In this document: one piece after another, positions 719 through 10,188 of the stretch
Layout: each line of letters starts with the position of its first letter
How positions within the stretch are numbered: the first letter of the stretch is position 1
Assembly: GCF_011684115.1 (NCBI RefSeq)
Contig: NZ_JAADJV010000006.1
Coordinates: forward strand, 108,729 to 172,728
DNA length: 64,000 nucleotides
Direction: 5' to 3'
DNA from: Rahnella aceris
GTDB lineage: Bacteria; Pseudomonadota; Gammaproteobacteria; Enterobacterales; Enterobacteriaceae
Notes under the pieces: generated by a model
What the model was told of the DNA's origin: nothing
The model's database searches: none
What the model saw: the letters and a program-made list of their open reading frames with translations, nothing else
Program-made: the position numbers and the translations under genes

Positions 719-1513
719 ATGAAACAGTATCTGGATTTAATGCAGAAAGTGCTCGATGAGGGCACCCCTAAAGCCGACCGTACCGGTACAGGCACGCTGT
801 CGATTTTTGGTCATCAGATGCGTTTCAACTTGCAGGAAGGTTTCCCGCTGGTCACCACCAAACGCTGTCACTTGCGCTCAATCATTCATGAACTCCTGTG
901 GTTCCTGAAAGGTGAAACTAACATCGCCTATCTGCGTGAAAATAATGTCAGCATCTGGGATGAGTGGGCAGATGAGAATGGCGACCTCGGCCCGGTTTAC
1001 GGCAAGCAATGGCGTGCCTGGGGCGCGGCTGACGGCAGGCAAATCGACCAACTGGCGAGCGTTGTTGAACAGCTGAAAAAAGACCCGGATTCACGCCGCA
1101 TTATCGTGTCGGCGTGGAATGTGGGTGAACTGGATCAGATGGCGCTGGCACCTTGCCACGCTTTCTTCCAGTTCTATGTGGCCGACGGGAAACTGTCTTG
1201 TCAGTTGTATCAGCGTTCATGCGACGTTTTCCTCGGACTGCCGTTTAACATCGCCAGCTACGCGCTGCTGGTGCATATGATGGCGCAGCAATGTGATCTG
1301 GAAGTCGGTGACTTTGTCTGGACCGGTGGTGATACACATCTGTACAGCAACCATATGGAACAGACACATCTGCAACTGACGCGTGAGCCTCGTGCATTGC
1401 CAAAACTTGTCATTAAACGCAAACCTGCCTCCCTGTTTGATTACAACTTCGAAGATTTCGAGATTGAAGGGTACGATCCGCATCCCGCAATCAAAGCGCC
1501 GGTCGCGATCTGA
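719..1513 (+). CDS. thyA: Thymidylate synthase
   Basis: This 264-residue protein has the same length as E. coli ThyA. It methylates dUMP to dTMP using methylene-tetrahydrofolate in the cytoplasm. The catalytic cysteine is at residue 146 in the motif [10 protein letters not shown], and the dUMP-binding stretch [20 protein letters not shown] follows. The ATG lies 6 bp after the lgt stop and is preceded by a GAGG ribosome-binding site that overlaps that stop, which suggests translational coupling. A GC-rich hairpin follows the gene. Several lipoproteins made downstream in this window (MltA, YgdI, NlpE, RcsF, MetQ) depend on the upstream partner Lgt, but ThyA itself is metabolically unrelated. 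Confidence 0.98.
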
Positions 1514-2834: not shown

Positions 2835-3316
2835 CAGCAGCAAAAATGCGCGATTCGTCCAGACAGCGGGGGAGCGCCATGATCCTGAGTATTTTGGTGA
2901 TGATGGGATTAGGGCTGATTGCCCTTAACTCGCTGCAACAGCAACTTTCCGCCGGGCTTGCGCTGACGTCAAATCAGCATCGCTATGTCATTGCCCGGGA
3001 AAATGCAGCCTCAGCATTAGCATGGGGTATCCGCCAGTCATGGAAAGACAGCAGCGAACCTCTCTGGCAGTGCCGGGATATGCCCGCAGGCCTCATTGTT
3101 TCAGGAAGTGGCAGGACGTGTACCCGGCCTTCATTGCGTCAGGATATCTTTCTGGTTCGTGGTGAGGGAAGAATGGCTGAAGGCAATGAGCCGGTTATGC
3201 AGTATCAGCAAGTCAGTATTAAAAAACAGACTGGTGGAAATCTGATTTTTTCACCGCTGACACAGGGATGGCTGGATTTTTGTCCTGAGGCTGATGAGCA
3301 GATCTGCAATGAATGA
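2831..3316 (+). CDS. ygdB: YgdB family protein (DUF2509), minor pilin-associated
   Basis: This 161-residue protein lies between ppdB and ppdC as in E. coli. After a basic leader (RQRGSAMILS) it has one hydrophobic segment, LSILVMMGLGLIALNSL, resembling a PulK/PilX-type minor pilin without the canonical +5 glutamate. Cysteines at the middle and the end may form disulfides. It overlaps ppdB by 4 bp and ppdC by about 20 bp, so the four genes are likely translated from one message. No enzymatic function is recognisable. Confidence 0.85.
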   Translation: MTAAKMRDSSRQRGSAMILSILVMMGLGLIALNSLQQQLSAGLALTSNQHRYVIARENAASALAWGIRQSWKDSSEPLWQCRDMPAGLIVSGSGRTCTRPSLRQDIFLVRGEGRMAEGNEPVMQYQQVSIKKQTGGNLIFSPLTQGWLDFCPEADEQICNE

Positions 3317-3653
3317 AAGCCACTCAGCACAGCAAGGTTTCAGCCTCACGGAAGCGCTCATCGCCATGTTGTTCTTGTCAGTTTCCATTCTGGGACTCCT
3401 GAATTATTACCAATCACTGAGCAATGGGTTTATGCGTCAGTGGCAGGTTCAGCAGGCGTGGTCAGAAGCACATTCCCAGCTTGAAGCATATTCAGTGGCA
3501 GGAAAGGGGACGGAGCCTTTAGCGAAAGATTGGGAATATCGGTTTACAGGCATTTCAGATGCACAATCCTGCAAGCTGGTCACTGCGACAATTCAAACGC
3601 CGGCAAAATATCAGGCAATATTGCAGCGCTTAATATGCAATTTGGGCCCCTGA
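3294..3653 (+). CDS. ppdC: Prepilin peptidase-dependent protein C, type IV pilin-like
   Basis: This 119-residue protein has the prepilin motif GFSLTEALIAMLFLSVSILG with the +5 glutamate. Two in-frame starts are possible: ATG at 3294, with a GAGG-like site in front, and ATG at 3309, which gives a shorter 10-residue leader. The first is used here, with some doubt. In E. coli the next gene is recC; here 296 bp of non-coding DNA and then ptrA follow. A C-terminal cysteine pair resembles other minor pilins. Confidence 0.87.
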   Translation: MSRSAMNESHSAQQGFSLTEALIAMLFLSVSILGLLNYYQSLSNGFMRQWQVQQAWSEAHSQLEAYSVAGKGTEPLAKDWEYRFTGISDAQSCKLVTATIQTPAKYQAILQRLICNLGP

Positions 3654-3955
3654 AGTTGTGCCTGTAAGCCGCATATTACCGGACAAAAATACTGTTAAGC
3701 CACTTGCAATGGCGGGCTAACAGCTTAGAGTGGTTTAACAGGGTTATTTTTCCCTATAGGGAGCAATTGGCTTTATGGTTAAAACGTGACGGAACATAGG
3801 AAGAAAATCCCGATTCGATTTTTTTCACAACTATCCTGTTTCTGCGGGGTCTTAGCAGGCTTAACCGCTCAAAACAGCTTGTTGAGGTTCATCTACCGGT
3901 GAGCTGTATATTTATTGCCCGTGTGGCACGTTTAATCGATTGAGGGAGAGTGGCA
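3654..3955 (+). other. Intergenic region where recC would be expected; contains the ptrA upstream region
   Basis: No coding frame was seen in this roughly 300 bp. In E. coli and relatives the ~1100-codon recC gene lies here. An imperfect inverted repeat (CTGTTAAGCC near 3692 with GGGCTAACAG ending at 3723) may fold as a hairpin. A strong Shine-Dalgarno (GAGGGAGAG, 3942-3950) belongs to ptrA. I found no recognisable RecC N-terminal or C-terminal remnant by eye. The segment probably derives from the original recC-ptrA spacer. Confidence 0.6.
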
Positions 3956-6841
3956 ATGTTAAAACACGTTACCCGCATTTCCGGGGTACTGTTGTTATTG
4001 ACCTTTTGGGCCCCTGTTGTTTCAAGTGCAGCCGACTGGCAGCCTTTTGCACAAGCTATCAATAAAAGTCAGAACGACCCTCGCCAGTATCAGGCAATTA
4101 AACTGGCTAATGATATGACCGTCTTGCTGGTTTCTGACTCTCAAGCCCCCAAATCACTCGCCGCGCTCGCCATTCCTGTCGGTTCGCTGGAGGATCCTGA
4201 TTCTCAGCTGGGTCTTGCCCACTATACTGAGCACATGTTACTGATGGGCTCGAAGAAATATCCTCAGCCGGAAAGTCTGTCTGAATTCCTTAAGAAACAC
4301 GGTGGCAGCCACAATGGCAGCACTGCTTCTTACCGTACCGCGTTTTATCTTGAAGTAGAAAACGATGCCTTGCCAGAAGCGGTAGATCGCCTTGCAGATG
4401 CTATCGGTGAACCGTTGTTAGACCCCGCCAACGGGGACCGTGAGCGTAATGCGGTGAACGCTGAACTGACCATGGCCCGATCACGTGACGGCATGCGGAT
4501 GGCGCAAGTTCGCGCAGAGACATTAAATCCCAGGCATCCGGCGTCCCGTTTTTCAGGCGGAAACCTGGATACGTTGAAAGATAAACCGGGCAGTAAGCTT
4601 CATGATCAGCTGACGGCTTTTTATCAGCGCTACTATTCTGCCAACCTGATGGTCGGTGTGATTTACAGTAATAAACCGTTGCCTGAACTTGCTGAGCTGG
4701 CCGCCACAACCTTTGGTCAGATCGCCAATCACCACGCAGCCGTGCCGCCGATTACGGTCCCGACATTAACAGCAGACCAAAAGGGTGAGTTTATCCATTT
4801 CGTTCCTGCACAGCCGCGCAAAGAATTACGGGTTGAATTTGCAATTGATAATAATAGTGCCCATTTTCGCAGTAAAACAGACACCTATATCAGCTATCTG
4901 ATGGGTAACCGCAGCCCGAATACCTTATCAGACTGGTTACAGAAGCAAGGCTATGCCGATGGGATCAGCGCAGGTGCGGACCCGATGGTTAACCGTAATA
5001 TGGGCGTATTCAATATCTCTGTTTCCCTGACTGATAAGGGACTGGCGCAGCGCGATACGGTTATTGCAGCCATTTTCAACTATCTCAACGAAATACGCGC
5101 TCAGGGCATCAAAAAAACCTATTTTGATGAAATTGCCCACGTTATGGCGCTCGACTTCCGCTATCCGGCGCTGACGCGTGATATGGATTATGTCGAATGG
5201 CTGGTGGACACCATGTTGCGGGTTCCTGTCGAACACGTTCTAGACTCACCTTATCTGACTGACCAGTATGACCCCAAGGCGATTGAGGCACGTCTAACAG
5301 AAATGACGCCGCAAAATGCGCGTTACTGGATCATCAGTCCGAACGAGCCGCACAATAAAGTGGCCTACTTCGTTAATGCGCCTTATGAGATTGATAAAGT
5401 TCCCGCGCAAACCTACTCGCAGTGGCAGACGTTGGGGAAGGGGATTTCGCTGTCGCTGCCAGCGCTGAATCCGTACATTCCTGATTCACTTGCGCTGGTC
5501 ACTAAAGATTCGACGGCGACGAAACCTGAGCTGCTGGTTGAAGATAAAGGTTTGCGTGTGTTCTACATGCCGAGTCGTTATTTTGCTGATGAGCCTAAAG
5601 CCAATGTGACTGTTTCTTTCCGCAATGAGCAGTCGCTCAGCACGGCTAAAAATCAGGTGCTCTATGGCCTGACGGATTACCTCACCGGCGTGGCTTTTGA
5701 TCAGCTGAGTTATCAGGCATCCATTGGCGGGATCACGTTCGGGACATCTCCGGATAACGGTTTGCAGTTTACTGCCACAGGTTTTACCGAGTGTCTGCCT
5801 GATTTACTGGCCGCACTGGTTGATAACTATCCCGATTTCAAACCGACTCAGGAACAGCTTGATCAGGCGAAATCATGGTATCTCGAACGCTTAGCTTCAG
5901 CAGATAAAGGAAAAGCGTTTGAGCTGGCGCTGCAACCGGTTCAGTTACTTTCGCGGGTGCCTTACACCGAGCGCAGCGAGCGTGAAAAGCTGGTTTCTGC
6001 CATCACACTGGATGATGTGAACGCTTACCGTGAACAACTGGTTCACCATGCTGCCGTGGAAATGATGGTTGTGGGGAACATGACGGCTGATCAGGTTAAA
6101 GCGATGTCTCAGCAAATTATGCAAAAGCTGGGCGCGCATGGGACACGGTGGTGGCGCGGAAAGCAGGCTGTAGTGACTCAGCCGCTGAAAGCAAATATCC
6201 AGCGTATCGGGACAAGTTCGGACTCAGCACTGGCAGCGGTATATGTTCCCACCGGTTATGATGAAGTTCAGAGCATGGCGTACAGTGCATTGCTGGGACA
6301 GATTATTCAGCCATGGTTCTACAGCCAGCTTCGGACACAGGAACAGCTGGGTTATGCCGTGTTTGCTTTCCCTATTCCGGTAGGAAAACAGTGGGGGATT
6401 GGTTTCCTGCTGCAAAGTAACAGCAAGCAACCTGACTATCTGTATCAGCGCTATCTGGCATTTTATCAGCAGGCCGAAAAACGTCTGCGTGAAATGAAGG
6501 ATGATGAGTTTCTGCAATATAAACAGGGACTGGTGCATGAAATGCAGCAAAATCCGCAGACGCTAGATGAGGAAGCCGACCGTCTGGGGAATGATTTCAG
6601 TCGCGGAAATCCGCAATTTGATACCCGCACGAATGTGATCCGGGTTATTGCCGGGCTGACTCAAACTCAACTGGCGGATTATTTCGATCAGGCTGTAATG
6701 AAGCAGGATGGTCTGGCGATGCTTTCGCAGGTCTCAGGCAACGATAGCAAGATCCCACAATATGCGGTGCCTGAGGGCTTTAAAACCTGGCCTGACACCT
6801 CCACGTTGCAACAGGTGCTGGAACCGCACGCGGATAAATAA
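3956..6841 (+). CDS. ptrA: Pitrilysin (protease III), periplasmic zinc metalloprotease
   Basis: This 961-residue protein (E. coli 962) is an M16 family endopeptidase that degrades small peptides in the periplasm. The inverted zinc motif HxxEH is present as HYTEH in LAHYTEHMLLMGSKKYP, with the downstream glutamate in NAVNAELTMAR. The N-terminus MLKHVTRISGVLLLLTFWAP ending at SSAAD is a signal peptide. The ATG at 3956 is chosen over an in-frame GTG at 3950 because it sits 7 bp from GAGGGAG and begins a proper signal peptide. In E. coli ptrA is embedded between recC and recB; here it stands alone between ppdC and argA. Confidence 0.97.
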   Translation: MLKHVTRISGVLLLLTFWAPVVSSAADWQPFAQAINKSQNDPRQYQAIKLANDMTVLLVSDSQAPKSLAALAIPVGSLEDPDSQLGLAHYTEHMLLMGSKKYPQPESLSEFLKKHGGSHNGSTASYRTAFYLEVENDALPEAVDRLADAIGEPLLDPANGDRERNAVNAELTMARSRDGMRMAQVRAETLNPRHPASRFSGGNLDTLKDKPGSKLHDQLTAFYQRYYSANLMVGVIYSNKPLPELAELAATTFGQIANHHAAVPPITVPTLTADQKGEFIHFVPAQPRKELRVEFAIDNNSAHFRSKTDTYISYLMGNRSPNTLSDWLQKQGYADGISAGADPMVNRNMGVFNISVSLTDKGLAQRDTVIAAIFNYLNEIRAQGIKKTYFDEIAHVMALDFRYPALTRDMDYVEWLVDTMLRVPVEHVLDSPYLTDQYDPKAIEARLTEMTPQNARYWIISPNEPHNKVAYFVNAPYEIDKVPAQTYSQWQTLGKGISLSLPALNPYIPDSLALVTKDSTATKPELLVEDKGLRVFYMPSRYFADEPKANVTVSFRNEQSLSTAKNQVLYGLTDYLTGVAFDQLSYQASIGGITFGTSPDNGLQFTATGFTECLPDLLAALVDNYPDFKPTQEQLDQAKSWYLERLASADKGKAFELALQPVQLLSRVPYTERSEREKLVSAITLDDVNAYREQLVHHAAVEMMVVGNMTADQVKAMSQQIMQKLGAHGTRWWRGKQAVVTQPLKANIQRIGTSSDSALAAVYVPTGYDEVQSMAYSALLGQIIQPWFYSQLRTQEQLGYAVFAFPIPVGKQWGIGFLLQSNSKQPDYLYQRYLAFYQQAEKRLREMKDDEFLQYKQGLVHEMQQNPQTLDEEADRLGNDFSRGNPQFDTRTNVIRVIAGLTQTQLADYFDQAVMKQDGLAMLSQVSGNDSKIPQYAVPEGFKTWPDTSTLQQVLEPHADK

Positions 6842-6864
6842 CGTGCTGATGTGCAAAGCAAAAT

Positions 6865-6892
6865 AAAAAGGACGCGAGAGCGTCCTTTTTTA
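6865..6892. terminator. Bidirectional terminator between convergent ptrA and argA
   Basis: A stem AAAAAGGACGC / GCGTCCTTTTT with a GAGA loop lies 23 bp after the ptrA stop and 26 bp from the argA stop. The A and T tracts on both sides make it a rho-independent terminator in either direction. In E. coli recB and recD would come before a terminator in this position. Confidence 0.9.
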
Positions 6893-6917
6893 CCACGGAG
6901 GAAAGGTGGCGAGATTT

Positions 6918-8243
6918 TTACAGTTCGGCGATCAGTATTTTGGAGCGACGCTGGTAGTTGTACATTTCTTGTTTCTGAATCGGCAACACATCCACTTCTG
7001 CTGGCTTGAAGCCACGTTCCTGGAACCAGTGAATACTGCGGGTCGTCAGTACGAACAGCCTGTTCAGCCCCATAAGTTTCGCCTGGCTGGCAACGCGTTG
7101 CAGTAACATTTCACCGCGTGAAGAGCTGCGGTAGTCGGGGTGAACCGCCACGCAGGCCATTTCGCCAATCCCTTCATCATGGAAGGGGTAAAGCGCTGCG
7201 CAGGCAATGGTCAGGTTATCCCGCTCGATAATGGTAAATTTATCGATTTCCATTTCCAGCTGTTCGCGGGAACGACGCACCAGAATACCCTGTTGCTCCA
7301 GCGGCCGGATAAGTTCCAGAATGCCGCCGATGTCGTTGATGGTTGCACGACGCACTTGCTCGGCACTTTCCATCACGATTTGCGTACCAATACCGTCTCG
7401 CGAGAACAGTTCCTGAACCAGCGCACCGTCTTCCTGATAACTGATCAGGTGACTGCGACGTACACCACTGCGGCAGGCTTTCACCGCGCCGCGCAGGAAG
7501 CGAACGGTGCCGGAAAGATAGTCACCGCTGGATTCCATCTGATCAATTCTTTGCTGTGCATCATTAGGGAACAGTTCGGAAATAATATTACCTTCCTCGT
7601 TGATTACCCCCTGAGAAGAGCAGAAGCCGATCATTTTTTCCGCTTTCAGTTTGATTGCTAGTTGTGTCGCTACTTCCTCAGAAGTCAGGTTGAAGCTTTC
7701 ACCGGTAACCGAAACTGCCACCGGGCCAAGCAAGACAATGGCATTGCTGTCGAGCTGACGGTGAATCGCTTCTTCATCAATACGGCGGATACGGCCGCTG
7801 TGACAGTAATCAATACCGTCATCGACGCCCAGCGGTTGAGCAATGATAAAATTGCCGCTGACGACGTTGATGTGCGCACCTTGGAGTGGCGTATTATTCA
7901 GACTCATCGAAAGTCGCGCTGTGATATCGAGCTGCAGCAGACCTGCGGCTTGCTTAACCAGCTCGAGCGCGCGGGCATCGGTGACGCGGATGTTTTTATG
8001 ATAAATCGGTTCGTAATTATGCTCAGAAAGGTTCTCATCAATCTGCGGTCGGGCGCCATAAACAACCACCAGACGGATGCCTAAGCTGTGTAACAGGCCG
8101 ATATCATTGACAATATTGCTGAAATTCTCATGTTCAATGGCTTCTCCACCGAGCATGACAACGAATGTTTTGCCACGGTGAGCATTTATATAGGGAACTG
8201 AGTGGCGAAATCCCTGGACCAGTTCAGTACTACGTTCCTTCAC
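6918..8243 (-). CDS. argA: N-acetylglutamate synthase (amino-acid acetyltransferase)
   Basis: ArgA acetylates glutamate with acetyl-CoA, the first committed step of arginine synthesis. The 441-residue protein has an N-terminal amino-acid-kinase-like domain ([30 protein letters not shown]) and a C-terminal GNAT acetyltransferase domain from about residue 295 ([20 protein letters not shown]). The start is GTG (8241-8243), as E. coli-type ArgA also begins at VKER. It is convergent with ptrA and divergent from amiC. Tandem ARG boxes just upstream indicate ArgR repression, and feedback inhibition by arginine is expected from the family. Confidence 0.98.
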
Positions 8244-9822: not shown

Positions 9823-9899
<77 letters not shown>

Positions 9900-9972
9900 T
9901 CCGTCACTACTGTTTACTGCTTTATTTCATCACATTATTCGAACTGAGCATCTTTATGCGTCTGTCTCGAAT

Positions 9973-10049
<77 letters not shown>

Positions 10050-10111
10050 TCCGTATACTGCTTTAATTCATCGTACAATTCAACCGGGCATTTAATGCAT
10101 CGATATCGAAT

Positions 10112-10188
<77 letters not shown>

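Follow-up and report, generated by a model that had tools for sequence, protein, structure and literature searches.

The Chi biology of enterobacteria is usually told as that of one conserved enzyme, RecBCD, and one conserved octamer, Chi (GCTGGTGG). RecBCD and AddAB have reportedly been exchanged between lineages, as Cromie is said to have described in 2009. The same exchange is stated by Rocha et al. 2005 (PMC1193525), whose text, in the sections available, reports little evidence of transfer for other recombination genes. In Pseudomonas syringae, the Chi word is GCTGGCGC according to the available part of PMC5959072. Here, a window of 64,000 bp (C6:108729-172728 of the Rahnella genome G000; 5.23 Mb, 10 contigs) was analysed, in which ptrA is retained without its usual neighbours on either side, recC and recB-recD. 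The three genes are found elsewhere in the genome as an operon of another RecBCD lineage, and very probably the native RecBCD of Rahnella has undergone xenologous replacement, as it seems also to have done in Dickeya and in Pantoea sp. A4.

The original prediction held that recC-ptrA-recB-recD is the usual order and that recC, recB and recD are absent here, and both statements were confirmed. In native-type loci of the family, recC was located before ptrA and recB after it in 3/3 loci read (L287, L293 and L294), and the order ptrA-recB-recD was found in all five native-type genomes considered (G014-G017 and G022). The distance between RecB and argA was 1.9-4.6 kb in the 20 native-type family genomes with both places listed (counted by eye). 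In Rahnella, the region 3294-7300 of the window, with the order ppdC-ptrA-argA, is present in 14/14 genomes and unbroken in 13 of them; in the remaining one (G010, locus L168), ptrA and argA are separated by approximately 1.4 kb bearing an IS4-like transposase frame (named by eye). The absence of recC, recB and recD at this locus is therefore real and genus-wide. No relic of recC was found in the gap before ptrA by BLASTN against ptrA loci only, where the Rahnella gaps matched at 77-87% and matches elsewhere covered 11-17 bases (E >= 1.9). The same comparison of the gap after ptrA, again with ptrA loci only, revealed no relic of recD, the matches outside Rahnella being 10-17 bases long (E >= 0.4). 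In the latter gap, for which the original prediction named a terminator, an 11-pair stem-loop is listed on the minus strand; the scan proves nothing by itself, with 4 terminator-like sites in 3500-7000 vs. 3.7 expected from shuffles.

A search of the G000 genome with PF04257 revealed a single RecC place. It belongs to an intact recC-recB-recD operon without ptrA (C1:103388-112577), located on a contig other than that of the window, which contradicts the proposed loss of RecBCD. The recC/recB and recB/recD frames each overlap by four bases, and all three frames are open and full-length. Their products align nearly end to end with the E. coli chains of PDB 1w36 and pass the general models of RecB (TIGR00609, 1043 bits, cut-off 696), RecC (TIGR01450, 1098 bits, cut-off 583) and RecD (TIGR01447, 587 bits, cut-off 310); all three are below the cut-offs of the PRK models of RecB, RecC and RecD. 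By eye, RecB has ASAGTGKT and DYK and RecD has GGPGTGKT, which we take to be intact motifs of helicase and nuclease. Judged by these models and motifs, the operon most likely encodes RecBCD (exodeoxyribonuclease V), a helicase-nuclease predicted to be controlled by Chi and to load RecA. When G000 was searched with RecB (E <= 1e-3), only the RecB of the operon and a 724-amino-acid (aa) helicase were found; no other AddA-like frame appeared, and AddB was not searched for. Protein P0001 scored 154 bits against the AddA model TIGR02785, far under its cut-off of 708, and is not an AddA by this model. Thus, the substitute asked for in the original prediction is present as a foreign RecBCD, and AddAB need not be invoked.

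To place this RecBCD, its RecB was compared with those of 392 genomes from 154 genera of the family, and a match with E <= 1e-270 was counted as Rahnella-type. Such RecBs were found in 10/392 genomes and 2/154 genera, namely in six Rahnella genomes and four of genus g196, taken as Dickeya since G497 shares the contig number and coordinates of PtrA with the Dickeya undicola genome G414. Within Rahnella, the protein is 85-91% identical in 13/13 congeners, as it is to that of ten named Rahnella species in a separate scan; its identity to the RecBs of other genera of the family is 43-44% in five full-size genomes and 42-45% wherever identity was listed. Rahnella RecB is 61-67% identical to the proteins of Dickeya, Pantoea sp. 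A4 and the betaproteobacterium Jeongeupia. Among the best 80 of 408 loci in a scan of named genomes, the matches were Jeongeupia (63%) and Pantoea sp. A4, a Burkholderiaceae metagenome-assembled genome (MAG) and Pokkaliibacter (61% each), followed by 64 further loci at 50-58%, mostly beta- and gammaproteobacterial.

Phylogenetic trees were built for RecB (59 rows, with a careful tree of 27 rows), RecD (31 rows) and RecC (24 rows); several native rows of the RecD and RecC trees were partial, and the RecC tree had only two native-type rows. The trees of the three subunits agree: Rahnella, Dickeya and Pantoea sp. A4 are united (support 99-100) and lie among the beta-type proteins, apart from the native enterobacterial RecB. 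In the careful tree, forcing all RecBs of the family into one clade cost 510 log-likelihood units (approximately unbiased (AU) test, p 6.2e-13), so that vertical descent of RecB is rejected. By tree and locus, Rahnella RecBCD differs from the native type: its RecB does not group with enterobacterial RecB, and no recC-ptrA-recB-recD stands between ppdC and argA in any of the 14 genomes. It should be noted that Chitinibacteraceae, the Burkholderiaceae MAG and the gammaproteobacterium Pokkaliibacter, with one recC each, occur together in the clade next to the Rahnella type; therefore, repeated transfers of this RecBCD lineage may have taken place outside Enterobacterales too.

The same pattern was revealed in Dickeya and Pantoea sp. 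A4. A Rahnella-type RecB was found in 9/9 Dickeya genomes (62-68%), and ppdC, ptrA and argA are adjacent in the four ptrA places read in this genus, two of which, in G497 and G414, probably come from a single strain. In Pantoea sp. A4, ptrA adjoins argA and has pilin-like frames upstream, together with a short match to ppdC. Each of ten genomes checked (two Dickeya, Pantoea sp. A4, Jeongeupia, the MAG, Pokkaliibacter and four Rahnella) contains a single recC. With foreign trees, and with the native genes absent at the ptrA loci read in Dickeya and Pantoea sp. A4, it thus appears that three enterobacterial genera have had their RecBCD replaced by one from outside the order. The spacing between ppdC and ptrA, approximate because it was taken from match ends, is about 300 bases in Rahnella, 26-33 in Dickeya and about 153 in Pantoea; that between ptrA and argA is 76-83, 98-121 and 111 bases, respectively. 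The 15 genes flanking the Rahnella operon gave only three matches (24-35%) to the Dickeya, Pantoea, Jeongeupia and Pokkaliibacter loci (five loci read, up to 10 kb per side). These differing scars and operon sites suggest separate insertions and deletions in the three genera; a single event followed by divergence is less likely. In both Dickeya loci (L073 and L074; 6 kb before recC), an open reading frame (ORF) of approximately 1650 aa followed by one of 140-155 aa was observed just upstream of recC.

Other explanations of the operon were considered. A misassembly that dropped recC and recB-recD from the window, raised as an assembly collapse in the original prediction, has nothing in its favour and virtually no chance of being right: the same junctions occur in 14/14 Rahnella genomes and the sole RecC of G000 lies elsewhere; therefore, no assembly artefact is involved. 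Relocation, the fallback of the original prediction, would mean that the native operon moved, shed ptrA from its middle and diverged fast. The same three genes in one copy per genome and the empty native site agree with it, but the trees of all three subunits group the operon with Dickeya, Pantoea sp. A4 and the beta type, and placing Rahnella RecB with the natives cost 521 log-likelihood units (AU p 3.1e-5). Moreover, fast divergence would not yield a RecB nearer to that of Jeongeupia than to those of other genera of its own family. Relocation is thus ruled out by phylogeny under the models used, and we regard it as highly improbable. Scarcely more credible is ancient paralogy, in which an enterobacterial ancestor had both the native and the beta-type RecBCD and each lineage lost one. 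The three genera do form one RecBCD clade, so that a single early gain with many losses is conceivable; however, very many losses would be needed for a type restricted to two genera of the family sample (Pantoea sp. A4 comes from the separate scan). In addition, no genome with both types was seen, with one RecC in each of the ten genomes checked and one RecB match per family genome listed, and the flanks of the operon differ among the three genera.

Some observations weigh against replacement from outside the order. The operon has a GC content of 58.5-60%, which corresponds to the 91st-96th percentile of 169 local ORFs, but the GC content at third codon positions (GC3) reaches only the 73rd-86th percentile, so there is no clear foreign composition signal, and composition was dropped as evidence of transfer because GC3 is ordinary. 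Unlike letter make-up was flagged in many tree rows; a compositional artefact is unlikely because the three subunits agree. The branch joining the group of the three genera to Jeongeupia, the MAG and Pokkaliibacter carries a star in the 59-row tree (99), but not in the careful tree (94/96).

Replacement from outside Enterobacterales may be pictured as follows. An ancestor of Rahnella would have acquired a whole recC-recB-recD operon from a donor outside the order, of a lineage found today mainly in Betaproteobacteria, and the operon would have lodged elsewhere in the chromosome. With a second complete RecBCD the native one could become dispensable, and the native recC and recB-recD would then have been deleted on both sides of ptrA; the gain thus presumably preceded the loss. 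The ptrA gene would have been kept as an unrelated protease gene that shares only the neighbourhood. The acquired complex would enter double-strand ends, unwind and degrade DNA, switch at its own Chi-like word and load RecA; as far as its sequence tells, it is probably active and serves in place of the native RecBCD throughout Rahnella. The presence of the operon in every Rahnella genome searched, down to 85% identity within the genus, and its ordinary GC3 point to an old event. The three genera were probably emptied of native genes separately. Escape from phage inhibitors of RecBCD might have favoured the foreign enzyme, which is a guess. The coordinates of the genes are given in Table 1.

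Table 1. Features of the ppdC-ptrA-argA locus (window coordinates) and of the recC-recB-recD operon (contig C1) in Rahnella G000.
Feature	Position	Strand	Remarks
thyA	719..1513	+	Left anchor of the conserved neighbourhood; ORF 264 aa; DNA ~81% to thyA of E. coli genomes
ppdC-like prepilin gene	3294..3653	+	recC normally next; ORF 119 aa; position kept across Rahnella
Gap, native recC site	3654..3949	.	296 bases
ptrA (pitrilysin), retained	3950..6841	+	ATG at 3956; NF011681 1612 bits, cut-off 765
Gap, native recB-recD site	6842..6917	.	76 bases; contains stem-loop 6865-6890
argA	6918..8243	-	Right anchor; ORF 441 aa; DNA 83% to G561, nearest non-Rahnella genome
recC	C1:103388-106846		1152 aa, GTG start
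recB	C1:106843-110526		1227 aa
recD	C1:110523-112577		684 aa

The ppdC-like frame scored 50 bits against NF007660, under the cut-off of 86. PtrA is 92-93% identical in two Rahnella and 58-63% to other genera. At the ten named Rahnella operon loci, major facilitator superfamily (MFS) and LysR genes lie downstream in 10/10 and an alkene reductase gene upstream in 5/10 at the same threshold. Note that positions 9823-10188 of the window hold a tandem of three tRNA-Met genes on the minus strand, the first two of which are spanned by a spurious 89-aa ORF.

The frequency and polarity of GCTGGTGG were then estimated as leading/lagging strand counts, with expectations from a strand-specific order-3 model. 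In 800 kb of G000 (C1:1-800000), the counts were 116/61 (65.5% leading vs. 64.2% expected), and in 800 kb of the native-type G014 (C1:1-800000) they were 151/40 (79.1% vs. 62.2%). The native-type G022 gave 10/3 in 100 kb. For two further genomes, counts were made from motif positions, the replichore was assigned by the location of genes, and the shares stand without a composition expectation: Rahnella G012 gave 54/50 in 664 kb, with a maximum of 63.5% when the origin was freely placed, and G561, which scored best by argA DNA outside Rahnella, gave 100/22 in 606 kb. The RecBCD of G561 is taken to be native since it has no beta-type match and its genus-mate G296 carries a 42% RecB beside argA. 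Thus, the leading-strand share of GCTGGTGG is 79-82% in two native-type relatives and 52-66% in two Rahnella genomes (pooled 261/65 vs. 170/111; Fisher p 1.6e-7). Among 221 words, GCTGGTGG had the largest difference in polarity between G000 and G014, and by joint polarity and enrichment it ranked 1 of 3642 words in G014 and 1649 of 3894 in G000. Over-representation is kept, with GCTGGTGG enriched over expectation 1.83-fold in G000, 1.57-fold in G014 and 1.34-fold in Dickeya. A maximal-order Markov test was of no use for judging the frequency of Chi, since it gave GCTGGTGG only 0.2 even in the native-type G014.

This comparison covers six genomes with one or two independent swaps among them, and whether the swap caused the erosion of Chi in Rahnella is somewhat doubtful to us. 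We lean slightly towards a weak polarity unconnected to the replacement, due to drift, to rearrangements or to an altered use of Chi that predates the swap. Such a reading agrees with the continued over-representation of Chi in Rahnella, with the unequal halves of the G000 sample (63/37 and 53/24) and with Dickeya G726, which is not clearly depolarised (66/33 in 400 kb, 66.7% vs. 60.3% expected, p 0.11). According to the available part of the survey by Buton and Bobay 2021 (PMC8022716), Yersinia lacks Chi, several Serratia have lost it, and GGTGGTGG is the word given for Dickeya and Edwardsiella; polarity may therefore vary even where no swap took place, and a causal role of the replacement is hypothetical. 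On the other hand, the polarised G561 and G014 stand against both Rahnella genomes, and GCTGGTGG is the very word that heads the polarity difference. A fuller account, in which Rahnella and Dickeya are natural experiments in swapping an enzyme, the former Chi word retaining its frequency for a while but losing its replication polarity after the arrival of a foreign RecBCD with another Chi preference, and in which three separate swaps each removed the native genes around ptrA and were driven by escape from phage inhibitors, is unlikely as a whole.

No convincing candidate for a new polarised Chi word in Rahnella emerged from the word scan of the G000 sample. AGCAGGGC (61/4) headed the scan but was rejected because it is polarised in G014 too (82/27); it fits the RRNAGGGS class and is presumably FtsK-related. 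The word GCTGGCGC was likewise set aside for its weak polarity (148/87, p 0.087). In Dickeya G726, GGTGGTGG is over-represented 2.18-fold, its polarity (60/30) not exceeding expectation. Twelve RecC residues are listed as affecting Chi recognition, and are said to be conserved in P. syringae, in the available part of PMC5959072. Rahnella RecC has the letter of the E. coli chain at 11/12 of these positions, T40 being replaced by N, and N40 was found in 19/19 aligned RecCs of the Rahnella, beta and Pseudomonas types. This does not fully match that part of the paper: N40 occurs in the three Pseudomonas RecCs analysed here, and the E. coli chain has Q where the paper gives D137.

The whole genus Rahnella, as well as Dickeya, carries another RecBCD lineage, and RecB, RecC and RecD are unsafe as vertically inherited markers in Enterobacterales. 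It can now be tested whether recognition by RecBCD maintains the frequency and polarity of Chi, at what pace they decay once the enzyme is swapped and whether replacement is driven by phage inhibitors of RecBCD. No report of RecBCD replacement in Rahnella or Dickeya was among the matches listed in open-licence full text, a search outside which most subscription journals fall and by which priority is not established. The available part of the Chi survey (PMC8022716) does not mention Rahnella and does not tie the deviation of Dickeya to a RecBCD replacement, which may account for Dickeya standing out there.

Compared with the native enterobacterial RecBCD (E. coli, PDB 1w36), the Rahnella enzyme shares the three subunits, similarity over nearly their full length and most of the Chi-affecting RecC positions, but its RecB is only 42-45% identical, ptrA is missing between recC and recB, the operon lies at another site and its proteins remain under the PRK cut-offs. 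With the RecBCD of Betaproteobacteria and Pseudomonas (P. syringae Lz4W, available part of PMC5959072) it shares recC-recB-recD without ptrA, N40 in RecC and the position in the trees; it differs in that the Rahnella operon sits in Enterobacterales. As in the exchange of RecBCD and AddAB, a double-strand-end enzyme was probably replaced by transfer, which is a known type of event. This instance is of interest because it recurs within a single order and allows Chi to be studied once the enzyme has been exchanged: here RecBCD supplants RecBCD, in three genera, within the order where Chi was defined.

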